Source of the DNA: Spirochaetales bacterium
GTDB taxonomy: Bacteria; Spirochaetota; Spirochaetia; SZUA-6; DRHE01
DNA length: 64,000 bases
Direction of reading: 5' to 3'
Assembly: GCA_030604195.1 (NCBI GenBank)
Contig: JAUVWI010000008.1
Span: 1-64,000 of the forward strand
Shown here piece by piece: positions 38,919 through 49,759 of this stretch. A program made the position numbers and the translations under genes. A model generated the notes under the pieces. It searched no databases and was not told where the DNA came from. It saw nothing but the letters and a program-made list of their open reading frames with translations. Each line of letters opens with the position of its first letter. Within the stretch, counting starts at the first letter, position 1.

Positions 38919-41537
38919 ATGCACAATACAACCCCGATGATGCTCCAGTATAAGAAAATAAAGAATGAACACCGTAACTCCATTCTTTTTTTCCGCCTTG
39001 GCGATTTCTATGAAATGTTTGAACAGGATGCTTTTGAAGTATCCAAACTTCTGGATATTACCCTTACCAGGAGAAATGGCGTGCCCATGTGCGGTATACC
39101 GTATCATGCAGCTCCCAATTACATTACCCGACTGCTCAAAGCAGGCAGGAAGATTGCCATTTGTGAACAAACCCAGCTGCCTGCTGATGGAAAGGGAATA
39201 GCCAAACGAGAGGTAACCGAGGTAATAACACCGGGCACCGCTGTAGAGGAGGGTTTCTTAGATAGAAACAGCAACAATTACCTGGCGGCCATCGGGCGGT
39301 TGAATGAATTTATTTCATTCGCCTATATTGATCTTTCCACCGGTGAATTTCTGGCCACGCGTATTAAATACATGGATAGAGCATCAGGATTGCGGAAAGA
39401 GTTTTTCCGCCTCTCTCCCAGGGAAATATTGATCCAGGAAACTCTGTTAAAAGATGATAAGGCTATCTGCGCATTAATACAGGAACGTGAAGGATTGGTC
39501 ATAAACCGCTATCCAGACTGGAATTTTGACCTGGATTTGAACCGGCGTCTTTTGGAAAAACAGCTGAAGGTTGTCAATTTAAAGGGATTCGGCCTCGAAG
39601 GGGAGGCGCCGGAAATATTATCTGCCGGTGTCATACTTGATTATATTAATGATACATCCAGGGGCCTGCTCACCCATATCCGGAATTTAACCATCTATTC
39701 AGAAAATACCTTTGTCGGTCTTGATGAAACCAGTCAGAGAAATCTGGAGCTGGTTCAGAATATGCAGGACCGCAGCCGCAGGCACACGCTGCTCGAGGTG
39801 CTCGATCAGAGCCGTACCTCCATGGGTTCCCGCAGACTGAAAAAGGTTATTCTCCAGCCTTTGAAGAATAAAGATCAGATTGAAAAGAGGCTGGATATTG
39901 TCGATAGTTTTTATCACCATCAAATTCTGCTCTCCCAGGTAAGAGAAAATTTTAAAAACTTCTTTGATCTGGAGCGTCTTATATCCAGGGTGGCTATGGA
40001 AAAAGCACACGCTAAAGATCTTCTGGCCATAAAATCTTCCCTGGCAGTTATACTCTCTTTAGAAGAACTGCTGAAAAGCTATCCGGACCTGGAGCAGGAG
40101 ACAGCTCGTCTTACAAAATATAAAAATGAGGTAGAAGAGCTGAAAGGTTTATTGGAGGAATCAATACTGGAAGAGCCATCCCTGCTCCTTTCCGAGGGAA
40201 ATCTTATAAAAACCGGATACAACACCGATCTGGACAGGCTGCAGATATTGCGGAAAAATGCCCGCAGTATATTGGAAGATTATCTGAACCGGGAAAGAGA
40301 AGAATGCGGCATATCCTCCTTAAAGCTCAAATACAACCGTATTTTAGGCTATTTTTTTGAGGTTACCAAAGCTAATCTCAATCTGGTTCCCGACCATTTT
40401 ATTCGCCGCCAAACCCTGGTTAACGGCGAACGTTTTACTACTGAGACATTAACTGAAAAGGAAATCGAAATTAATAATGCTTCGGAAAAAATTGTAGAAC
40501 TGGAGAGAGAGCTATTCTTAAAAATACGTTCCAGAGTAGGCGAAGCAACCGGTATTATCCTGGACCTTTGCGAAGTCATAGCTGATCTTGATGTACTGCA
40601 ATCCTTTGCCTTTGCCGCCACCCTGCAGGGTTACATTCGCCCGAAAATCAATTCCCGCGGTCTTTTAAAGATTGAAGAGGGACGCCACCCGGTAGTTGAA
40701 GCCAACCTTCCACCCGGTTCATTTATTCCCAACAATTTGAATCTTATCAGCTCCGGTAATTTTTTTGTTCTCCTAACCGGACCCAATATGGCCGGCAAAT
40801 CCACATTCTTAAGGCAAACTGCATTAATCATACTAATGGCTCAAATAGGATGCTTTGTGCCGGCCTCTGAGGCAAATATAAGCATAACCGATAATATTTT
40901 CTGCAGAGTGGGGGCAACGGACAACCTGGCCAGGGGGGAATCGACCTTCCTGGTGGAAATGAATGAGACTGCCAATATACTCCGTTCCGCCACGGACAAG
41001 AGTCTGATCATTATGGATGAAATAGGAAGGGGCACCGGCACTAATGACGGTCTTTCAATTGCCTGGGCAGTGAGCGAATACCTGTTGAATTATGTAAGAG
41101 CAAAGACCCTTTTTGCCACCCATTTTCACGAATTAACCGATCTAAAGCATAAACATCTGGTTAACCTTTCAATGGATGTTTTAGAGAAAGATGGTGAAAT
41201 AGTCTTTCTTAAGAAAGTAAGGTCCGGGCCTTCGGACAACTCTTACGGAATCCATGTTGCCAAACTCGCCGGTGTACCTGAAAAAGTAATAACTGAGGCA
41301 GCGAAAATGCTCTGGCATCTCAGCACCCGGGAAAAAACTCCCCGATCCCTAAAAAGCCGGCAGCAATCAGCTGACAGGGATAATCTGAAAGAGGCTCCGA
41401 GTGAGCAGCCCCTCCTGTTTTCAGCCGCCCAGGTAATTCAGGAAGAAATACTTAATATCAAACTGGACAGCACTACTCCACTTGAAGCTCTGAACCGCCT
41501 GGCACACTGGCAGAACGAAATTAAAAAGCAGGTGTGA
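38919..41537 (+). CDS. mutS: DNA mismatch repair protein MutS
   Basis: MutS finds mismatches and starts repair. The 872-residue protein has the mismatch-reading N-terminus (LFFRLGDFYEMFEQDA, with the F-x-E motif), connector, lever and clamp domains, and the ABC-type ATPase core: Walker A GPNMAGKSTFLRQ, LARGESTFLVEM signature, Walker B LIIMDEIGRGTGTNDG and ATHFHELTDL. No mutL is in view. Two TATAAT-like boxes lie only 10-19 bases before the first ATG at 38919 and no ribosome site is seen; the double ATG at 38937-38942 is an alternative start closer to the family's usual beginning. Confidence 0.96.
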   Translation: MHNTTPMMLQYKKIKNEHRNSILFFRLGDFYEMFEQDAFEVSKLLDITLTRRNGVPMCGIPYHAAPNYITRLLKAGRKIAICEQTQLPADGKGIAKREVTEVITPGTAVEEGFLDRNSNNYLAAIGRLNEFISFAYIDLSTGEFLATRIKYMDRASGLRKEFFRLSPREILIQETLLKDDKAICALIQEREGLVINRYPDWNFDLDLNRRLLEKQLKVVNLKGFGLEGEAPEILSAGVILDYINDTSRGLLTHIRNLTIYSENTFVGLDETSQRNLELVQNMQDRSRRHTLLEVLDQSRTSMGSRRLKKVILQPLKNKDQIEKRLDIVDSFYHHQILLSQVRENFKNFFDLERLISRVAMEKAHAKDLLAIKSSLAVILSLEELLKSYPDLEQETARLTKYKNEVEELKGLLEESILEEPSLLLSEGNLIKTGYNTDLDRLQILRKNARSILEDYLNREREECGISSLKLKYNRILGYFFEVTKANLNLVPDHFIRRQTLVNGERFTTETLTEKEIEINNASEKIVELERELFLKIRSRVGEATGIILDLCEVIADLDVLQSFAFAATLQGYIRPKINSRGLLKIEEGRHPVVEANLPPGSFIPNNLNLISSGNFFVLLTGPNMAGKSTFLRQTALIILMAQIGCFVPASEANISITDNIFCRVGATDNLARGESTFLVEMNETANILRSATDKSLIIMDEIGRGTGTNDGLSIAWAVSEYLLNYVRAKTLFATHFHELTDLKHKHLVNLSMDVLEKDGEIVFLKKVRSGPSDNSYGIHVAKLAGVPEKVITEAAKMLWHLSTREKTPRSLKSRQQSADRDNLKEAPSEQPLLFSAAQVIQEEILNIKLDSTTPLEALNRLAHWQNEIKKQV

Positions 41538-41572
41538 CTCAATGCGCAGAGCTCGCATGGCTCGCATGCAGA

Positions 41573-42115
41573 TCAGGAGAGCAGATCTAAAACATTCTCC
41601 GCTTTAATCTTGAGCTTAATATCACCATTTGCTTTTAAGGCGACTACAGTTTTCTTGAGCATTTCTTCGGCGTGGTCCTTATGGGTCAGTGAATGTAAAT
41701 TCTGTTCCTTAATCTCAAATTGACTTAAAGCAATTGATTGCTCTTTGATTTGATCATGCAATTCCTGAATTATGCTTTTTAGAACAGACGGATCCTTTAA
41801 GGTGACCGGATCAGCACCACCCCTGCCGGCAAGCTCCGTAGACAGACTTTCAACCTCGGCAGAATCCATTCCCCTGTTAAGGAAACCGGCCAATTGTTCG
41901 TATTTTTTCAGAGCGTTCTGAGCGTTGGTGATTGAGCGCTGCATCTGAATAATCTGCGAATGTACCGGAGAAATCGCTAAAACATCTCTCTGCCGGTTGG
42001 AAATCGCCGAACTATTAAAAGTACCTTTTTTGACATCCGCAGATCTCTCGCCGCGTTCCTGTTTACCCAGGTTACCGCTTTTTTCCGGCGGTATCCTGCT
42101 TTCAACTATTTTCAT
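41573..42115 (-). CDS. Uncharacterised coiled-coil protein
   Basis: I do not recognise this 180-residue protein. It has no signal peptide. The first ~50 residues look disordered and basic (PPEKSGNLGKQERGERSADV), and the middle (about 50-150) is strongly helical with heptad-like spacing (IIQMQRSITNAQNALKKYEQL, IIQELHDQIKEQSIALSQFEI). The C-terminus (ALKANGDIKLKIKAENVLDLL) could be a small strand-helix tail. It is convergent with mutS, 35 bases away, and divergent from comF, so it forms its own unit. A structural or cytoskeletal role would be guesswork. Confidence 0.6.
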   Translation of the reverse strand: MKIVESRIPPEKSGNLGKQERGERSADVKKGTFNSSAISNRQRDVLAISPVHSQIIQMQRSITNAQNALKKYEQLAGFLNRGMDSAEVESLSTELAGRGGADPVTLKDPSVLKSIIQELHDQIKEQSIALSQFEIKEQNLHSLTHKDHAEEMLKKTVVALKANGDIKLKIKAENVLDLLS

Positions 42116-42277
42116 TTCCCCTCCCCCCGGTCAGTATTTTACCTTGAAATCGGGCAGCTGTCAAATATTTGTATTGCAGCCAAGACTGCCACGGGATATA
42201 CTTCTTTTATCAAAAAGGAATACATAAATACGTTTCTGGAAATCTTTTTCCCGGGGAAATGCCTGCTCTGCGGTGAA

Positions 42278-42916
42278 ATGCTCCTGGGCAGGAGCCAATC
42301 CCTTAAACCAGTCTGCCTGTCATGTCTGCAAGGGCTTAAACCAATAGCAGGCAGGCGCTGTTCTGTCTGCAGCAGAGCGCTGATCTCTGAAAAGGATATC
42401 TGCACTGCCTGCAGGCAGAGAGAATACAACTTTAATACAAACTATTCCATTTTTGAGTACAGCGGCGTAATCAAGGAATTGATCTATCAATATAAATTCA
42501 GGAGAAGAAAGAGAGTAGCCCTGATTTTTGCCGGGTTCCTGGCTGAAGCTCTTAAGCGCCTCTATCCCCGATCAATAGTCATACCTGTGCCGCCGCGAAA
42601 ACAGCCATGGGGGCAAAGGGACTGGGAGCATGTTGATCTTATTACCCGCTGCCTTGAAGGATTCTATGGAATAACAACGGCAAGGATATTGAAACGCAGT
42701 GGGAAAAAAGCGCAGAAGTCCATGGATTTCCTGCAGCGAGCGGAAAATATACGAAATACCATAAGCCTAAAAGGTGATTTGCCAAATACTTCTATCGACG
42801 TAGTATTGCTCGACGACATCTTTACCACCGGGGCAACAGGCAATGAGTGCGCCCGGGTACTCCGAGCGGCAGGCTGCCGATCCGTTAACCTGGTAACCCT
42901 GGCTTTAGATTATTAA
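42278..42916 (+). CDS. comF: ComF-family phosphoribosyltransferase-like protein
   Basis: ComF proteins combine an N-terminal zinc-binding part with a phosphoribosyltransferase domain and are linked to DNA uptake or DNA metabolism. Visible are the second C-x2-C pairs (CLSC, CSVC, CTAC), the Y-S-G-V-I-K-E-L-I-Y-Q-Y-K-F-R motif, VIPVPPRK and the PRPP loop VVLLDDIFTTGATGNEC. The first ATG is at 42278, but the same open frame upstream encodes FLEIFFPGKCLLCGE (42233-42277), which is the family's true N-terminus with the first zinc pair. No ATG, GTG or TTG exists there, so the real start is probably non-canonical, near ATA 42224 after AAGGA. Confidence 0.85.
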   Translation: MLLGRSQSLKPVCLSCLQGLKPIAGRRCSVCSRALISEKDICTACRQREYNFNTNYSIFEYSGVIKELIYQYKFRRRKRVALIFAGFLAEALKRLYPRSIVIPVPPRKQPWGQRDWEHVDLITRCLEGFYGITTARILKRSGKKAQKSMDFLQRAENIRNTISLKGDLPNTSIDVVLLDDIFTTGATGNECARVLRAAGCRSVNLVTLALDY

Positions 42917-42973
42917 AACAGTATTTGTGGAAGTGGAGGGATAACTGGAGTGGAAGATACAGGGTTCTGAAGG

Positions 42974-42987
42974 CTAAATAGAGTTTC
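42974..42987 (+). repeat. 14-bp direct repeat, left copy
   Basis: CTAAATAGAGTTTC occurs here and again at 44081-44094 in the same orientation. The two copies bracket the AbiEii-type gene pair. Confidence 0.5.
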
Positions 42988-43005
42988 TGATATTGTTCTG
43001 AAATT

Positions 43006-43269
43006 TTAAGATCCTGTCATTTTAAAAATAATTTCTTCCCAGGTTTCCGATTCGGCGATATAAGGAGAAATCAGACGGATAAATCGTTTCCTCTTATCAC
43101 TTGTCCTTAGAGAGTCAACATCGATTGAATCTAAGTAGATTTTCAACTTGTCCGGAGGATATCTTATCAAGTCAGGAAAGGAGGCATACTCAATGATCCG
43201 CCTTAATTTGAACCCCTCGGATAAATTTTCCGTACCATCCCAAAAATATTTTTTAAGAGGATCGTGCAT
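43006..43269 (-). CDS. Small partner of the AbiEii-type gene (DUF6922-like)
   Basis: This 87-residue protein begins LKKYFWDGTENLSEGFKLRRIIEYASFPDLIRY. That phrase, a W-D near the start followed by an I-I-E-Y-x-S/D-x-x-D helix, resembles the small DUF6922-type proteins often paired with AbiEii nucleotidyltransferases; the match is from memory and not firm. It overlaps the AbiEii gene by 17 bases and is thus cotranslated with it, here downstream of the toxin candidate, while the antitoxin more often comes first. Probable role: antitoxin or regulator of the pair. Confidence 0.55.
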   Translation of the reverse strand: MHDPLKKYFWDGTENLSEGFKLRRIIEYASFPDLIRYPPDKLKIYLDSIDVDSLRTSDKRKRFIRLISPYIAESETWEEIIFKMTGS

Positions 43270-43945
43270 TGCTTATCAAATCTCCTATCAGACCATGAGC
43301 GAATTGGTTCATTGCGTCAGGTGACATATTTTTTTTCAATAATGCCGTGCCTTCTATTTTGCTATTTGAAAGAGCAATAATTGTACCCTCATAATCCAGA
43401 GGAACAACCTTATACTTTGCCCATTCTGTAAGCAGTGACAAATCCATATCTTGCAGTAGATAATAAAGATCTACGAAATCCTTGGCAGTTTTACGGTCAT
43501 AAATTGCGGTAATTTTATTAGTTCCAATATTTTCTTTACTATCGATTATAATACCTGTATTTTCATGAAATTCCCCAATATGTGGATAATTTTCATAGAT
43601 GAATTCTATTTTGAGCTCAATCTTGTTTGACTGGATAAAGCCGCGTTTAAAGAATTCTCCGTTTAAAGTTATTTCAATCTCATATTGTTTTTGCAATCTA
43701 TTGATTATATTTCTGGATTCGACTTCGAATTCCTCTTTTAGATATTGGCTGCCGTTGAAAATAAAATCCAGATCTTCTGAATAACGATGATAATAATAAA
43801 ACCTGGACAGACAGGTGCCGCCGCTTAAATAAAAACGATCTGTCTGTAACATTGTAAATACAGCATCCTGTAATGGATACAGGTTGTTTTCGTAGAAATT
43901 AATTTCCTCTGGCCCTGCCGGACGAATATTATCAGTAGTAAACAT
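43253..43945 (-). CDS. AbiEii/AbiGii-family nucleotidyltransferase (toxin)
   Basis: AbiEii-type toxins are nucleotidyltransferases that modify tRNA or other targets and give phage abortive infection or plasmid stability. The 230-residue protein shows the family phrase YLSGGTCLSRFYYYHRYSED followed by LDFIFN: a GG-T/S start and an acidic S-E-D-L-D pair for metal binding. A later ITAIYDRKTAKDFVDLYYLL matches the R-x-x-x-K/R-D-x-x-D-L-Y-x-L segment. Key residues are intact, so it is predicted active. The strongly AT-rich coding differs from comF and rimP on either side, a sign of transfer. Confidence 0.82.
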   Translation of the reverse strand: MFTTDNIRPAGPEEINFYENNLYPLQDAVFTMLQTDRFYLSGGTCLSRFYYYHRYSEDLDFIFNGSQYLKEEFEVESRNIINRLQKQYEIEITLNGEFFKRGFIQSNKIELKIEFIYENYPHIGEFHENTGIIIDSKENIGTNKITAIYDRKTAKDFVDLYYLLQDMDLSLLTEWAKYKVVPLDYEGTIIALSNSKIEGTALLKKNMSPDAMNQFAHGLIGDLISNARSS

Positions 43946-44080
43946 TTCAACTATTTACAAGCAATACTCAAATTTGTTCATAGTATCAATTTATACTTCC
44001 CTTAGCAATATAAGAATAAATAGGGGATAAAGGCACTCAATTCGTAAGCTACGATGAAAATGACGCTCTTTTTCTAAAGA

Positions 44081-44094
44081 CTAAATAGAGTTTC
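44081..44094 (+). repeat. 14-bp direct repeat, right copy
   Basis: Identical to 42974-42987 over CTAAATAGAGTTTC. The interval between the copies, about 1.1 kb, holds only the AbiEii-type gene and its partner. Confidence 0.5.
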
Positions 44095-44120
44095 ATAAGT
44101 AAAAATCTTTAAAAAGGTTC

Positions 44121-44140
44121 ATTTGCCAGTCTCGGCAAAT
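44121..44140. terminator. Short inverted repeat, possible terminator
   Basis: ATTTGCC and GGCAAAT form a perfect 7-bp stem around a six-base loop. On the plus strand TGTGTTTTCTC follows, so it could act as a weak terminator, but no plus-strand gene ends just before it. It may insulate the mazEF-like promoter downstream. Confidence 0.3.
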
Positions 44141-44157
44141 TGTGTTTTCTCAATCTA

Positions 44158-44186
44158 TTGACTGAAATATGGTAATGATGTATATT
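44158..44186 (+). promoter_or_regulatory. Predicted promoter of the RHH/MazF pair
   Basis: TTGACT (44158-44163) and TATATT (44181-44186) are exactly 17 bases apart. A 10-bp direct repeat AATGATGTAT (44174-44183 and 44200-44209) overlaps the -10 box and the start region and may be the operator bound by the ribbon-helix-helix antitoxin. Confidence 0.6.
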
Positions 44187-44225
44187 TAGTATGTAATTCA
44201 ATGATGTATTTGCTTGGAGGCACAA

Positions 44226-44465
44226 ATGGTACGTGCACAAATAATCCTGAGGGAAGAACAGCGTAAAGTATTGGCTGAAATTGCAAAACAGGAAAATCGA
44301 AGTATCTCAAATCTTATTCGTGGATTTTTAGATGAGCAAATTCGTGTGCACGAAGAGCGTCAAATGTTTAAAGCAGCAGAACTGCTTAAGGAAGACTACA
44401 TGAACGACCAGGAGCTTACTGTATTTACAGCGTTGGACATCGAGGAATTTCATGAAGAGGGGTGA
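44226..44465 (+). CDS. Ribbon-helix-helix antitoxin of a MazEF-type pair
   Basis: The 79-residue protein begins MVRAQIILREEQRKVLAEIAKQENRSISNLIRGFLDEQI, a strand followed by two helices with the S-x-S-x-L-I-R turn of CopG/Arc-type DNA-binding proteins. The rest is acidic (ELTVFTALDIEEFHEEG) and would thread onto the toxin. ATG 44226 is chosen because GGAGG lies five bases upstream; the in-frame ATG 44214 lies before that site. Its end overlaps the toxin start by 14 bases, typical of cotranslated pairs in which the antitoxin is made first and in excess. Confidence 0.85.
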   Translation: MVRAQIILREEQRKVLAEIAKQENRSISNLIRGFLDEQIRVHEERQMFKAAELLKEDYMNDQELTVFTALDIEEFHEEG

Positions 44466-44811
44466 AGTCTGGCTTATTAATCTTGATCCAACAATTGGTG
44501 GGGAAATCAGGAAAAAAAGACCTGCTGTTATAGTTAATGTTGATTCAATAGGGATCCTTCCACTTAAAGTTATCGTGCCAATTACACAGTGGAAGGAACA
44601 TTACAAACAAGCGCCGTGGATGGTTCTTTTAAATCCGAATTCAGAGAATAATTTAGATAAACCTTCGTGTGCAGATACATTTCAGATTAGATCGGTTTCT
44701 CATAGGAGATTTATTGAGCGACTTGGTAAAGTTAATTTAGATAATATGAAGGAAATCGAGTTAGCCCTGTTAAGGGTTTTGGGGATTCTAAATAAAGCCA
44801 GGAAAGCATAA
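44452..44811 (+). CDS. mazF: MazF/PemK-family mRNA interferase toxin
   Basis: MazF cuts single-stranded RNA at short sequences and stops growth. The 119-residue protein has the family start MKRGEVWLINLDPTIGGEIRKKRPAVIVN, followed by LKVIVPIT and a LDKPSCADTFQIRSVSHRRF segment, in which the conserved R (RGEVW) and the S/T of the catalytic pair are kept. The length is normal. It overlaps the RHH antitoxin gene. Its end lies about 10 bases from the cut CsgG-like gene on the other strand, so it marks the right end of the inserted DNA. Confidence 0.92.
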   Translation: MKRGEVWLINLDPTIGGEIRKKRPAVIVNVDSIGILPLKVIVPITQWKEHYKQAPWMVLLNPNSENNLDKPSCADTFQIRSVSHRRFIERLGKVNLDNMKEIELALLRVLGILNKARKA

Positions 44812-45091
44812 GGCTGTGCCTGATATTGCCGGCCTGTGCTGCGCTTGCCGTGCTGGTAATTCCGGAGAGCTGGAGCTCCTGCTCCTCTAAAAGCGCATCG
44901 AGCCTTTCCCCCTCTACAAGCTGGAAAATGGGGATCTTAGATAGCTCTGTCTGCAGATGCTCCTCCACAAGGCGGGCGGTGTCCCTGTCGACACCAATTG
45001 GCTCAACCTGGGTAACAGCAAGGCTTAATCTCTGGCCTGAGAGACTGTAAATGCATAGAAAGCAGATGAGAATCAGAAAAGATTTTTTCAT
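44732..45091 (-). pseudogene. Truncated CsgG-like secreted protein, 5' remnant
   Basis: The first ~90 codons (45091 back to about 44822) encode a signal peptide (KKSFLILICFLCIYSLSG) and the start of a CsgG/LpoB-type domain: LAVTQVEPIGVDRDTARLVE, LVEGERLDALLEEQELQLSG and SAAQAGNI. After GNI the family would go on with a nucleotide-binding-like strand, but the frame here runs into unrelated sequence that is the antisense of the mazF end. The gene has therefore lost its 3' two thirds where the toxin-antitoxin DNA begins. No 3' piece was found on the left side of the patch near comF. Confidence 0.65.
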
Positions 45092-45185
45092 ACTTCACTC
45101 CAAAAATAGGAGATTAAATAAAAAGAATTAGATGACAATTAAAGTTTAATAGCAAATAAATATATCGGGGAAGAAATTCCTTCTC

Positions 45186-45214
45186 TTGACAATTCGCTCC
45201 CTTACTGTTATCCT
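45186..45214 (+). promoter_or_regulatory. Near-consensus promoter of the rimP-nusA-infB operon
   Basis: TTGACA (45186-45191) and TATCCT (45209-45214) are 17 bases apart. Transcription should start near 45221, giving a leader of about 60 bases that contains the hairpin at 45249-45274. Confidence 0.65.
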
Positions 45215-45248
45215 TTCACCAGACTTAAAATTATATTTAGCAGCATGA

Positions 45249-45274
45249 AGAGTCGGTAAAGCGGCTCTTTTTTT
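45249..45274 (+). terminator. Intrinsic terminator in the rimP leader (possible attenuator)
   Basis: AGAGTCG and CGGCTCT form a 7-bp stem with a 6-base loop (GTAAAG), followed directly by a run of seven T (one in the stem end). It lies between the predicted promoter and the rimP start, so it would stop most transcripts of the operon unless read through. The stop could be regulated, for instance by NusA, which is encoded by the second gene. Confidence 0.65.
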
Positions 45275-45281
45275 ATGGGTG

Positions 45282-45743
45282 ATGGAGGTGAATGACTTAG
45301 AAGAAACTATATATAATGAGATTGAAGAGGTTATTGCCGGAATGGGTTTTTCTATAGTGGAATGCAAGCTGGGCAAAAGCAAGCAGCTCAACCACATTTC
45401 CATTGTAGTATTCAGCAAAGAAGGGGTTGGCAGTAATGACTGTGCAGCAATTTCGCGTAATATTTACCCCCGATTAGAAATGATTCCCGGTTTACACGAC
45501 ATAGCACTTCAAGTTTCTTCACCTGGGATCAACAGAAAGATTAAAAGTCCCAGGGAATACTCGATATTCAAGGGGCGGGGAATAACGCTGCTTACGGAAG
45601 CCGGGTCTGATTGGATAAGAGGAATAATTGTAGATTTTAAGGAAAATATATTAACACTCGAGCAGGAGCAGGGTAGCTTGAAAATAGAACTTAAGAATAT
45701 TCGAAAAGCAAGATTGGACTACACACAGGAGGTGGGAAAATAA
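45282..45743 (+). CDS. rimP: Ribosome maturation factor RimP
   Basis: RimP helps to mature the 30S subunit. The 153-residue protein has the two-domain plan: an N-terminal alpha/beta domain (IEEVIAGMGFSIVECKLG, then the ISRNIYPRLEMIPGLHDIALQVSSPGINRKI block, with the G-x-x-R-x-L/I signature in SSPGINRKIKSP) and a C-terminal SH3-like domain (GRGITLLTEAG, then ILTLEQEQGSLKIELKNIRKARL). The start is uncertain among GTG 45279, ATG 45282 and GTG 45288; none has a separate ribosome site. nusA follows after three bases. Confidence 0.92.
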   Translation: MEVNDLEETIYNEIEEVIAGMGFSIVECKLGKSKQLNHISIVVFSKEGVGSNDCAAISRNIYPRLEMIPGLHDIALQVSSPGINRKIKSPREYSIFKGRGITLLTEAGSDWIRGIIVDFKENILTLEQEQGSLKIELKNIRKARLDYTQEVGK

Positions 45744-45746
45744 AAA

Positions 45747-47300
45747 ATGTCTTCGAAAATGGCTGATGCTATTAAACAGCTTATTCAGGATCGGGGTATC
45801 TCCATTGACCTGGTTATGAGGACAATCGAGGATTCACTTCTTGCCGCTTACAAGAAAAAATACGGAGTAGTGGATAATGCTGTTGTTCGTTTCAATGAGG
45901 AGGTCTCTGAAGTTTCAGTATTCGCTCAAAAGAAAATTGTTGAAGAAGTGGAAGATCCTGTTCAGGAGATCTCATTGAGCGAGGCTTTGCTGCTTAATGA
46001 AGAATGCGAAATCGGCGATGAACTGTTAATTGAGATTGATCCGAAGGAGTTTGACCGTGGCTCAGTGCAGAGCGCTAAGCAGAAGGCTAAACAGAGCTTA
46101 AGAGATATCCAAAAAAACACTCTTTACTCAGAATATCAGGAAAAGATAGGCGAGATGATTATAGGTTACTATCAGCGGGAACGGAATGGCAATATTTATG
46201 CTGATCTGGGCAAAACCGAAGGTATTTTGCCTAAGAAATACCAATCGCCGCGCGAAGTATATCATCCCAATGATCGTATCAGAGCCATGATTTATGAAGT
46301 TACCAAAACCCCAACCGGTCTTCAGATAATCCTGTCGCGTACTCATACCGATTTTGTCAAGAAAGTATTTGAACTGGAAGTTCCTGAGATTTACGACAGG
46401 ACCATTGAAATATTTAAAATCGTACGTGAGCCGGGATACCGAACCAAACTCGCTGTCTATTCCAATCGTGAAGATGTAGATCCCGTAGGAGCTTGCGTAG
46501 GCTTGAAAGGTGTCCGTATTCAGGCAGTGGTAAGAGAACTTGAAGGTGAAAAAATCGATGTACTCAAGTATGATCCAGACCCCAGAATCTTTATAAAGAA
46601 TGCTCTTTCACCGGCCGAGGTGAGCCAGGTGATTATTCTCGATGAAGCTAAGAAACAAACTATGGTTGTCGTGCCGGACAATCAATTCTCCCTGGCAATT
46701 GGTAAACAGGGATTGAATGTCAGGCTGGCCAATCGACTGGTGGACTGGAATATTGATGTAAAATCTGAATCACAATTCTCTGAAATGGACCTTTCAGCAG
46801 AAACCAAAAAAGCTGTATCAGCACTCTTTGGCGAAGTTGAGGAGGAAATTGTACGTATTAGCGAATTACCGGGTCTCTCTGAAGCCCTGGCCGCCAAACT
46901 GGCCCTCAACAACATCAAAAACATAGAAGACCTGGTAATATTGAGTGAAACAGAAATAGCTTCTCTGAATGGAATATCTGCCGAAGACGCAAAAACAATA
47001 AAGCAGATACTTGATGAAAATGTCGAGATCGTTGAAGAAGAACAAACCGCTCAAATCGAAGAGGCGGAACCGAGCGTAGCGAGCGAACCGAGCACAGCAA
47101 GCGTAGCGAGCGGAGTTGAACCAGCAGCAGCAGCAGAAGAAGAAGAAGAGATCCCAATTGAGGAAACTTATGAATGCCCCGAATGCGGGCATACAATAAC
47201 TGTAGATATGACCTCTTGCCCAAAATGCGGAGTAGGGTTAAGCTTTGAGGACTCCGATGACTCCGATAAGGGGGAAACAGAAGAGGAAATTGACCAGTAG
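45747..47300 (+). CDS. nusA: Transcription termination/antitermination factor NusA with C-terminal zinc ribbon
   Basis: NusA binds RNA polymerase and nascent RNA. The 517 residues hold the N-terminal polymerase-binding domain (MADAIKQLIQDRGISIDLVMRTIEDSLLAAYKKKYG), an S1 domain (about 135-200), two KH domains (GACVGLKGVRIQAVVREL and VPDNQFSLAIGKQGLNVRLANRL) and a helix-hairpin-helix-like region (about 370-430). Then come a low-complexity Glu/Ala/Ser linker and an added zinc-ribbon tail with C477-x2-C480 and C491-x2-C494. The tail is not part of the usual NusA. The linker DNA contains imperfect repeats of GCGTAGCGAGCG. GGAGG lies about 16 bases before the ATG. Confidence 0.95.
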   Translation: MSSKMADAIKQLIQDRGISIDLVMRTIEDSLLAAYKKKYGVVDNAVVRFNEEVSEVSVFAQKKIVEEVEDPVQEISLSEALLLNEECEIGDELLIEIDPKEFDRGSVQSAKQKAKQSLRDIQKNTLYSEYQEKIGEMIIGYYQRERNGNIYADLGKTEGILPKKYQSPREVYHPNDRIRAMIYEVTKTPTGLQIILSRTHTDFVKKVFELEVPEIYDRTIEIFKIVREPGYRTKLAVYSNREDVDPVGACVGLKGVRIQAVVRELEGEKIDVLKYDPDPRIFIKNALSPAEVSQVIILDEAKKQTMVVVPDNQFSLAIGKQGLNVRLANRLVDWNIDVKSESQFSEMDLSAETKKAVSALFGEVEEEIVRISELPGLSEALAAKLALNNIKNIEDLVILSETEIASLNGISAEDAKTIKQILDENVEIVEEEQTAQIEEAEPSVASEPSTASVASGVEPAAAAEEEEEIPIEETYECPECGHTITVDMTSCPKCGVGLSFEDSDDSDKGETEEEIDQ

Positions 47301-47347
47301 CTATAAGATTATTTTAGCTTAATAGAGGTCAGCGAAAAAGGTGATTT

Positions 47348-49759
47348 ATGCCGGAAGAACAGAAAAAAAAAGAAGAACAGGAAGAACAGAAAAAACCAAA
47401 AGCAACTCTTATAAAGCATAGAAACGCCCAACCACTTCCTTCTACTGAAGAAAAAAGTCGGAATGTTGAGAAAAAGAAGGTTGTTGTTATTAAGAAAAAG
47501 GTTGTCTTTCTTAAAAAAGGTATAGCCAAAGGTATGCCCAAAGGCATAATCCAAACTGATAAAAAAACTCCTGAACTGCAAAAAGAAATTCCCAAAGTAA
47601 GAAACGTTATTTCCCAGCAGAAAAAAACATTCGACAGAAAACCGCCCCTGGTAAGGATGAAAGGTAGAGCTCCCGATCGCTTCCCAAGCCGAAGCGGTTC
47701 ACAGATAACAGCACCGCCCAGAGGACCCACTTCCCGGCTTCAAAAGGTTGACGGAAAAAGTGGCAGACCAGGCTTTTCAGGCTCAAGACAACCTGGATTC
47801 AAACCGTCGCAATCAAGACCTACGGATCAACGTCCGGTAGATATTAAAAAAAGCCCGGGAAAGAAGTTTTTCAAGGCTAAGAAAAAGGGCGCTTACATAA
47901 GGAAAAGTAAACAGGAATATCATGAAAAGCTGATACCGGTGAAGAAAAAAGCAATTCATCGGGCCAATCCCATACCAAAAGAGATATCGATTATGGAGGT
48001 AATAACAGTATCTGATCTGGCCAGGAAGATGAACCTCAAGGCATCTGAATTAATCTCCAAACTCATGGGTATGGGAATGATGGCAACTATAAACCAGCAG
48101 ATAGATGCCGAAACTGCTACAATCCTTTCCGATGAATATAACTGTAAAGTAAATATTGTTTCCCTTTATGATGAAACTGTAATTGAAACTGAAAAAGACA
48201 GGGAAGAGGAAATGCAGTCCAGACCCCCGATAATAACGGTAATGGGTCATGTGGATCACGGAAAAACCAAGCTCCTTGATACTATCAGATCGGCTAACGT
48301 GGTTGATACGGAATTCGGCGGCATTACCCAGCACATCGGTGCATATGTTGTTGAGCTTCCACAGGGCCGGTTGGTCTTTCTGGACACACCGGGCCACGAA
48401 GCATTTACCACAATGAGGGCACGCGGTGCTCAAATTACTGATTTTGTAGTACTTGTTGTAGCTGCAAATGACGGTGTAATGCCGCAGACAGTAGAGGCAG
48501 TAAATCATGCCAAAGCGGCCGGTGTGCCGATTATTGTAGCTATCAATAAAATCGACTTACCTGAAGCTAATTCTGAGCGTATCAAACAGCAGCTCTCTGA
48601 ATATGAATTGGTACCCGAAGAGTGGGGAGGGCACACAATTTACTGTGAAATTTCTGCATTAAAGAAAATCGGTATAGATAACCTCCTGGAAAACATTTTG
48701 CTGCAGTCGGAAATGCTTGAGTTGAGCGCAAGTTATAACTGCCGCGCAGAGGGACATGTTATTGAATCAAAAATCGATCTTGGCCGCGGAATAGTGTCAA
48801 CAGTGCTTGTGCAGAGGGGCACTCTTAATGTGGGTGACTCCTATGTGGCCGGGATCTTTCCGGGCAAAGTCAGGGCTATGTTTAATGATAGAGGCGATCG
48901 GATTGAGAAAGCAACACCCTCCATGCCGGTTGAAATTCTTGGTTTTACCGGGATTCCCAATGCAGGTGATCCTTTCCAGGTTACAGACTCTGAAAAATCA
49001 GCGCGGCAGATCGGCATAAAACGCCAGGAACTGAAAAAACGCGAGCAATCCAGGAATTTGAAAAAAATTACCCTTGATAACCTCTATGAACAGATAAAAG
49101 AAGGAGAACTAAAGGAACTTAACGTAATAATCAAGGGTGATGTGCATGGCTCAGTTGAAGCCTTGCAGAATGCCCTTGAAAAATTGAGCACTTCTGAGAT
49201 TAAACTGGTCACCAGACATGCCTCGGCCGGAACTATCAATGAAAATGATGTAATGCTGGCCTCAGCTTCGAATGCAATTATTATCGGCTTTAATGTCCGT
49301 CCAAGCAGCAATACTCAGACTCTGGCAGATCAGGAAAAAGTAGAGATACGTAAGTATAATATTATCTATGAAGCCATTGAAGACATCAAATCAGCTATGG
49401 AAGGATTGTTGTCTCCGGAACTCAAAGAACAGACCCTGGGCGTTGCTGAAGTACGTAATATTTTCAAGGTTCCTAAAATCGGGACAATTGCCGGCTGTTA
49501 TGTAACTTCCGGTAAGATCCGTAGGGGAGCAGATGTTCAATTATTCCGGGATGGTGTCGGCATCTATAGAGGCAAAATATCATCCCTTAAACGATTTAAA
49601 GATGATGCCCGTGAGGTGGAAACAGGCTTTGAATGCGGTATCGGTATTGATAATTTCAACGATATCAAAATAGGCGACTTAATAGAAGCCTATGAGATCA
49701 TCGAACTGGCCAAAAAACTGGAAGGCGGAGATGGGAGAGATCAGGCTAAAAAAAGTTAA
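47348..49759 (+). CDS. infB: Translation initiation factor IF-2
   Basis: IF-2 brings initiator tRNA to the ribosome using GTP. The 803-residue protein has a long basic, Lys/Pro/Arg-rich N-terminal extension (about 1-200), the IF2-N domain (EISIMEVITVSDLARKMNLKA), the GTPase domain with GHVDHGKT, DTPGHEAF and NKID motifs, domain II and the C-terminal domains (VIKGDVHGSVEALQNAL, then RNIFKVPKIGTIAGCYVTSGKI). GGTG stands eight bases upstream of the ATG. Its end overlaps rbfA by 29 bases. All motifs are intact. Confidence 0.97.
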   Translation: MPEEQKKKEEQEEQKKPKATLIKHRNAQPLPSTEEKSRNVEKKKVVVIKKKVVFLKKGIAKGMPKGIIQTDKKTPELQKEIPKVRNVISQQKKTFDRKPPLVRMKGRAPDRFPSRSGSQITAPPRGPTSRLQKVDGKSGRPGFSGSRQPGFKPSQSRPTDQRPVDIKKSPGKKFFKAKKKGAYIRKSKQEYHEKLIPVKKKAIHRANPIPKEISIMEVITVSDLARKMNLKASELISKLMGMGMMATINQQIDAETATILSDEYNCKVNIVSLYDETVIETEKDREEEMQSRPPIITVMGHVDHGKTKLLDTIRSANVVDTEFGGITQHIGAYVVELPQGRLVFLDTPGHEAFTTMRARGAQITDFVVLVVAANDGVMPQTVEAVNHAKAAGVPIIVAINKIDLPEANSERIKQQLSEYELVPEEWGGHTIYCEISALKKIGIDNLLENILLQSEMLELSASYNCRAEGHVIESKIDLGRGIVSTVLVQRGTLNVGDSYVAGIFPGKVRAMFNDRGDRIEKATPSMPVEILGFTGIPNAGDPFQVTDSEKSARQIGIKRQELKKREQSRNLKKITLDNLYEQIKEGELKELNVIIKGDVHGSVEALQNALEKLSTSEIKLVTRHASAGTINENDVMLASASNAIIIGFNVRPSSNTQTLADQEKVEIRKYNIIYEAIEDIKSAMEGLLSPELKEQTLGVAEVRNIFKVPKIGTIAGCYVTSGKIRRGADVQLFRDGVGIYRGKISSLKRFKDDAREVETGFECGIGIDNFNDIKIGDLIEAYEIIELAKKLEGGDGRDQAKKS

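Follow-up and report, generated by a model that had tools for sequence, protein, structure and literature searches.

How did two putative toxin-antitoxin (TA) pairs and the 5' end of a lipoprotein gene come to lie between comF and the rimP operon of a Spirochaetales bacterium? The question arises in a 64,000-nucleotide (nt) stretch of contig JAUVWI010000008.1 (assembly GCA_030604195.1), hereafter the window, in which the gene order from left to right is comF (plus strand), an AbiEii pair (minus), an RHH-like gene with mazF (plus), a CsgG-like 5' fragment (minus) and rimP-nusA-infB. A first-pass annotation had read the two pairs as a single patch that replaced the 3' part of a resident CsgG-like gene. 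We instead suggest, with a probability of about 0.7, that in this genus the comF-rimP gap is a permissive place where small mobile genes land and decay, not one gene that was cut in two.

The comparison that carries this reading is with G001, the single other genome of the same genus in our sample (73% complete, 470 contigs). The window itself is part of a 75.7-kb contig (C87) of a 3.83-Mb assembly (G000; 145 contigs, 97% complete, 5.86% contamination) that is probably a metagenome-assembled genome (MAG). On the left, comF (42278-42916, plus strand), whose product is 91% identical to that of G001, forms a conserved border, with 93% DNA identity up to position 42918. Identity is back at 45169, just before the rimP promoter, and from rimP onwards it amounts to 91% over 9 kb; rimP (45279-45743, plus strand; PF02576/PF17384), the first gene of rimP-nusA-infB, encodes a protein 95% identical to its G001 counterpart. 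Between these borders, blastn against the G001 locus (L066) left 42919-45168 without DNA homology at E 1e-5. This variable interval measures 2250 nt in the window and 1434 nt in G001, and the contents are unrelated: in the G001 gap (L066 1598-3031), a Phd/YefM-PIN pair is accompanied by a broken gene that includes an FGE-sulfatase piece, the FGE-domain debris being preceded by what by eye looks like a signal peptide. The patch had been placed at 42950-44821; its right end stands, while its left edge is better set at 42918/42919, where the homology to G001 ends. That two TA pairs lie here in AT-rich DNA was correctly seen, as open reading frames (ORFs), Pfam families and base composition agree: the GC content is 0.35 (42919-43999) and 0.36 (44000-44811), compared with 0.45 (40000-42918) and 0.43 (45169-49000) on the two sides. 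In sliding windows, the one over the rimP leader (45000-45499) was low too, at 0.378.

Searches with rimP gave 60 matches, and the surroundings of 30 loci were analyzed. comF was located in 27 of these, the window and G001 included, and was not found at the other three, two of which lie at a contig end. In 23 of the 27 genomes comF and rimP are only 85-425 nt apart. The long gaps are those of the window (2363 nt), of G001 (1550 nt) and of two further genomes, G008 and G018 (~1.39 kb each), in which an ORF named by eye as methyltransferase-like occupies the gap and the comF matches are partial. The window's ComF shares 35-50% of its residues with those of eight other comF places found.

The piece next to the right border bears on whether a resident gene was interrupted. 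The CsgG-like fragment (44822-45091, minus strand) comprises the first 90 codons of a gene, from a signal peptide (recognized by eye) to the residues AAQAGNI. It scores 20.9 bits against PF03783, for which the cut-off is 20.8, and covers profile positions 40-88 of 210 only, so that it does not contain a complete CsgG domain. Its best relatives are long open frames of ~670-700 codons located elsewhere in other genomes; the closest (contig C19 of G016; L072 8374-10440) is a 688-residue protein with CsgG and PEGA domains, 61% identical over residues 4-90. Thus, the window copy resembles the CsgG-PEGA proteins of related spirochaetes in its signal peptide and in the first part of the CsgG domain, but keeps just 90 of 688 codons. 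The match to relatives stops at 44822, 11 nt past the mazF stop codon, and blastn against G016 ends at 44823, confirming the earlier description of a gene intact up to AAQAGNI and cut at the mazF end. The absence of the missing 3' part from elsewhere in the genome was likewise borne out: a search of the window's own assembly with the remaining 599 residues of the G016 protein did not find it and returned two local matches only, one over 48 residues (E 2.2e-5) and the other over 35 (E 0.17). Judged from the sequence, the truncation with loss of the 3' part is real.

These features could mean that the ancestor of the species carried a full-length CsgG-like gene in the comF-rimP gap and that the arrival of the TA genes deleted the 3' part of that gene. 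The fragment's frame is open from the start to the mazF border and is preceded by a plausible ribosome-binding site (GGAG before ATG, by eye), the break lies close to the mazF stop codon, and the 3' part is lacking from the assembly, all as this history predicts. However, a CsgG-like match (E up to 0.001) is absent from all 25 other measured comF-rimP gaps and from the G001 gap, and the uninterrupted gene for which the first-pass annotation proposed to check the intervals of relatives was thus not encountered. Moreover, the G001 border at 45169 lies upstream of the whole fragment, only 77 nt away, so that the fragment falls entirely inside the variable stretch and is lineage-specific content, its own upstream neighborhood missing as well. 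G001 carries a different TA pair and other debris between the same borders. We find no support for the idea that a TA patch replaced the 3' half of a resident gene, and regard an ancestral CsgG-like gene at this site as unlikely, though still deserving consideration. Nor did any relative examined show the truncated gene in the absence of TA genes, which the first-pass annotation had named as its refutation. It may be in this gap that the mazF-CsgG junction arose; alternatively, the CsgG-like piece may already have been short on arrival.

For the AbiEii unit, a previous location can be read. DNA common to the window (42970-44016, minus strand) and to G003, a genome of the same family but a different genus, is 94% identical over 42970-43452 and 87% identical over 43764-44016. 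The ComF, RimP and NusA proteins of G003 are only 50%, 52% and 70% identical to those of the window, and the AbiEii unit has therefore moved between genera. In G003 (contig C63), the AbiEii pair adjoins the 3' end of an outer-membrane-protein (OMP) gene (..KAKYSF*, asterisks denoting stop codons) and also a DDE transposase fragment. The window retains the junction between OMP gene and AbiEii pair: positions 42965-42987 (plus strand) read ..KAK*SF*, the last codons of the OMP gene with its stop codon kept and a Tyr codon changed to TAG. On the other side of the unit, a 3'-end remnant of the OMP gene (GDKGTQFVSYDENDALFLKTK*SF; 44022-44094, plus strand) is 85% identical to three G003 loci and 78% identical to a locus on contig C6 of the window's own genome. 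Within this remnant, positions 44072-44094 (plus strand) repeat the first stretch, with the same change from Tyr to TAG. The two copies of this 23-nt direct repeat match at 21 of 23 positions (91%) with a spacing of 1107, the maximum in 200 dinucleotide-preserving shuffles being 19/23. At this codon both window copies have TAG, whereas TAC or TAT is found in the five other OMP ends that were compared, so one of the two window copies was probably taken from the other in this lineage.

The G003 copy also differs internally. Its toxin gene lacks 324 bp (108 codons) in frame (L090 3681-4296), and the limits of the part missing there are marked, in the window's toxin gene, by two 13-nt stretches with a single difference between them. 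The G003 partner gene is open, with 91% identity to that of the window. By its sequence, this single assembly fits a history in which the toxin decayed first and the partner was retained.

OMP sequence extending leftward is found only at the second repeat copy, and the stop codon and AbiEii unit to the right only at the first, an order that either the opening of a circle at the repeat or a tandem duplication with trimming on both sides would produce. The AbiEii unit might accordingly be a circular cassette of ~1.1 kb that integrated at the 23-nt site, the rest having arrived separately, which would be compatible with a permissive landing site. The succession of first repeat, stop codon, AbiEii pair, left part of the OMP end and second repeat speaks for such a cassette, as do the TAG common to both copies and a 14-nt repeat core that occurs only twice in the window's own genome, both times in the window. 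A tandem duplication followed by deletions, however, yields the same order; moreover, a second repeat is lacking from the DNA examined around the G003 copy, the repeat corresponds to the terminus of a coding sequence rather than to a known recombination site, and no recombinase is nearby. We therefore find a circular origin of the unit improbable. One further site in the same genome, with three mismatches to the 23-nt form and inside an ORF read by eye as murJ, was considered as a third repeat copy and judged to be a chance match.

A bolder extension, which we offer as a long shot, is that some TA pairs spread as enzyme-less circles of ~1 kb that land by recombination at the repeated 3' ends of paralogous OMP genes and take up the gene tail, which then serves them as a landing site that travels with them; the window would then display one such landing, with its circularly permuted 23-nt repeat, and in addition a toxin-first class of AbiEii with a small antitoxin. 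The OMP gene was found at 22 places, and its neighbors were viewed at nine (the window; G003 contigs C1, C32, C63 and C107; G000 contig C6; L095, L096 and L100). TA genes adjoin it at three of the nine (the window, C32 and C63), and the OMP copy is broken in all three. At the other six, inspection by eye without a family scan recognized no TA genes, and in L100 the contig ends ~190 nt on. Nine of 22 places are too few, and we do not claim a preference of TA genes for this OMP gene. On C32 (L091 1325-2031 and 2172-3341), the pair is of the MNT/HEPN type and convergent with the broken OMP copy.

Familiar vehicles of gene transfer were sought as well. Neither transposase nor integrase matches were obtained for the five interval ORFs scanned against Pfam; no genome-wide integrase search was made. 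Eight pairs of inverted repeats lie within 42100-45300. One of them, 11 nt in length, reaches the right border with one arm (45168-45178), but its other arm (43030-43040) falls inside the partner gene, away from the left border. A composite transposon or insertion sequence is not supported, as neither a transposase among the five ORFs nor terminal inverted repeats at the patch were found, and nor is an integron cassette, as recombination sites do not recur beyond the two occurrences of the 14-nt core. MazF, AbiEii and its partner had no relatives in viral contigs at the sensitivity used. In plasmids, AbiEii had two distant matches (Campylobacter, 31-32%), the partner none, and MazF was matched in 64 records, all below 60% identity. 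Finally, that the TA and CsgG pieces were wrongly joined to the contig in assembly or binning, for which the fragmentation and contamination of the assembly and the deviating GC content of the patch could be cited, is very improbable, since the contig is 75.7 kb long, comF and the DNA from rimP onwards match G001, itself with an expanded interval, and the repeats are only 23 nt long.

We return to the comF-rimP gap as a landing and decay site. The proposed history would involve at least three pieces of separate origin, namely AbiEii with its partner, the RHH/MazF pair and the 5' end of the CsgG-like lipoprotein gene, which look like separate arrivals rather than the one patch originally described; OMP scraps, absent from the first-pass annotation, border the AbiEii unit. 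AbiEii and its partner would have moved together with an OMP gene tail that already adjoined them elsewhere. Once in place, AbiEii would add nucleotides to an RNA, for instance tRNA, and its small partner would neutralize it, while MazF would cut RNA and be neutralized by the RHH protein. Both pairs would be retained because losing the antitoxin first is costly, and the surrounding unprotected DNA would decay to scraps. The CsgG-like gene would have lost its 3' part at the meeting point with mazF, here or before its arrival. An insertion would persist only where it left comF, the rimP promoter and the leader hairpin unharmed, and we propose that the borders agree in both genomes without a site-specific enzyme because these three elements must be preserved.

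Several points weigh against this account. The hot-spot claim is based on two genomes only, the window's and the 73% complete G001; both assemblies are fragmented (145 and 470 contigs), and their contig joins are provisional. The sequence does not reveal the order of events, and the window site yielded neither a recombinase nor an insertion sequence or plasmid copy. For both pairs, toxicity and neutralization are putative, and the RHH assignment lies below the family cut-offs.

The right border coincides with the rimP leader (45186-45273, plus strand), which consists of a promoter-like site (45186-45214) and, from 45247, a hairpin with a T-run. Of 30 spirochaete loci (L009-L037 and the window), 29 have a hairpin followed by at least six T residues ahead of rimP, and 22 of these 29 carry GAGTCG on the 5' arm. 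Attenuators in rimP leaders are already known (PMC2965389), with a GGGc...gCCC motif that differs from the motif of the spirochaete hairpin. Rfam does not recognize the window's hairpin and, over 42900-45400, gave nothing save one match far below cut-off. The promoter-like sites before rimP and before the RHH-like gene are no commoner than in shuffled sequence and alone are no evidence. Beyond the left border, homology between the window and G001 starts abruptly at window position 42196; the mutS-comF neighborhood (38919-42195) is not kept in G001 (L066 1-874), where a different gene precedes comF.

The role of both TA pairs was drawn from family and layout. The putative RHH-like antitoxin (79 amino acids; 44226-44465, plus strand) follows a promoter-like site (44158-44186), and all its Pfam matches are below cut-off (RHH_5, 18.3 bits against 26; DUF6290, 19.4 against 27); a relative adjoins MazF in another genome, G059. 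Its gene lies upstream of mazF and overlaps it by 14 nt. The MazF/PemK-family toxin (119 amino acids; 44452-44811, plus strand) matches PF02452 at E 1.2e-25 over positions 1-108 of 109, a full-length domain, and is 67% identical to the G059 protein. On these grounds we infer that the pair would be a working toxin with a neutralizing partner. A palindromic hairpin (44121-44140), terminator-like on both strands, stands between the OMP remnant and the promoter-like site of the RHH-like gene. The genome as a whole is rich in TA genes: PIN domains pass the Pfam cut-off at 30 places, of which one contains an internal stop codon and a few are partial.

In the AbiEii pair, the putative toxin (230 amino acids; 43253-43945, minus strand) is an AbiEii/DUF1814 nucleotidyltransferase that passes the PF08843 cut-off with 61.5 bits against 22.5 (E 1.5e-16) and is related by profile to PDB structures 4o8s and 4ok0, both deposited as 'Putative'. 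Using the definitions of PMC3985639, motifs I-IV (GG; R and DxD; K/R; D) were assigned by eye in an alignment with two full-length relatives, and all are present (LSGGT, HRYSEDLD, NKITAIYDRKT and KDFVDL). Mutation of these motifs abolishes toxicity in the AbiE system described there. The putative antitoxin (87 amino acids; 43006-43269, minus strand) is encoded by the second gene of the pair, which overlaps the toxin gene by 17 nt. It is predicted to be all-helical (mean predicted local distance difference test score, pLDDT, 81.6), and neither Pfam nor PADLOC gave a match to it at E up to 1; NCBIfam gave only a chance match (E 0.16), and the PDB no credible one. Across the phylum, matches to it were found in 4 of 392 genomes at E up to 0.001, a sample that does not include G003: the window's own genome, the distant spirochaete G144 (E 5.2e-29, with an AbiEii gene ahead), G217 (E 7e-4) and G137 (E 9e-4, full of stops). 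We infer that AbiEii and this partner would form a working TA module.

The toxin precedes its partner, with an overlap of 17-20 nt, at all five loci (the window, G003, G144 and two MAGs), each of which was retrieved by searching with one of the two genes. The two MAGs are titled Deltaproteobacteria and Desulfuromonadales, and in one of them the pair sits between full-length ORFs read by eye as valS and nadK. At three other AbiEii loci from the same bacterial order (G000 contig C82, G004 and G024), a longer partner gene comes first. The C82 locus (L092 2012-3164) is a second AbiEii pair in the window's own genome, and its partner frame starts with an apparent internal piece of valyl-tRNA synthetase (PF00133 below cut-off over residues 6-32; valS by eye).

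Is the 87-residue partner nevertheless related to these upstream partners? hhalign gave P values of 0.012 (two sequences) and 0.0074 (three sequences), the associated probabilities being low (3.5% and 5%). When the three upstream partners were searched by hmmsearch together with 900 shuffled and three reversed controls, several shuffles scored above two of the partners (6th and 12th place), and the remaining partner did not appear among the 14 matches listed. As true proteins were outranked by shuffles, we do not consider sequence relatedness to be shown. In the predicted models, compared by residue number and not superposed, three helical stretches keep the same 28-residue offset (18-28/46-56, 31-46/59-74 and 58-71/86-99), which the last helix breaks (77-85/111-121). 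The upstream-type partner model is also without a credible PDB match.

Set against known systems, the RHH/MazF pair is conventional: it shares with type II pairs a full-length PemK/MazF domain, a small overlapping upstream gene and the two-gene layout seen in G059, and differs in nothing notable, its RHH score being under the Pfam cut-off. The AbiEii pair is like AbiE and MenAT type IV systems in its PF08843 toxin with the essential motifs, its two overlapping genes and its presence in distant bacteria. By the account of PMC3985639, however, a regulator gene precedes the nucleotidyltransferase gene in the described AbiE families, whereas in the window the toxin comes first and its partner, downstream and only 87 amino acids long, has no AbiEi-type match (no dedicated profile of the AbiEi-type antitoxin family COG5340 was run). 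MenA1, the 68-residue antitoxin of MenT1, is comparably small but encoded upstream of the menT-like gene in 15 of 21 cases (PMC10435456), unlike the downstream partner here. With the terms used, we found no toxin-first AbiEii pair in the open literature, which is no claim that none has been described. If the 87-residue protein is the antitoxin, toxin-first AbiEii pairs would define a subtype missed by searches for AbiEi-like upstream regulators.

A TA hot spot as such is ordinary; the AbiEii gene order is uncommon, and one unit's previous address is readable. Makarova et al. (2009; PMC2701414) described mobile two-gene TA modules that one close relative has and another lacks, at sites where synteny is otherwise kept. 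The comF-rimP gap resembles those cases in that its TA modules are likewise found in just one of two relatives at a syntenic site. It departs from them in that the entire gap content differs between the two relatives and gene scraps record the former location of one unit. The locus thus offers a legible case of a small TA module changing its address, with the same scrap of a neighboring gene attached at two sites in two genera.

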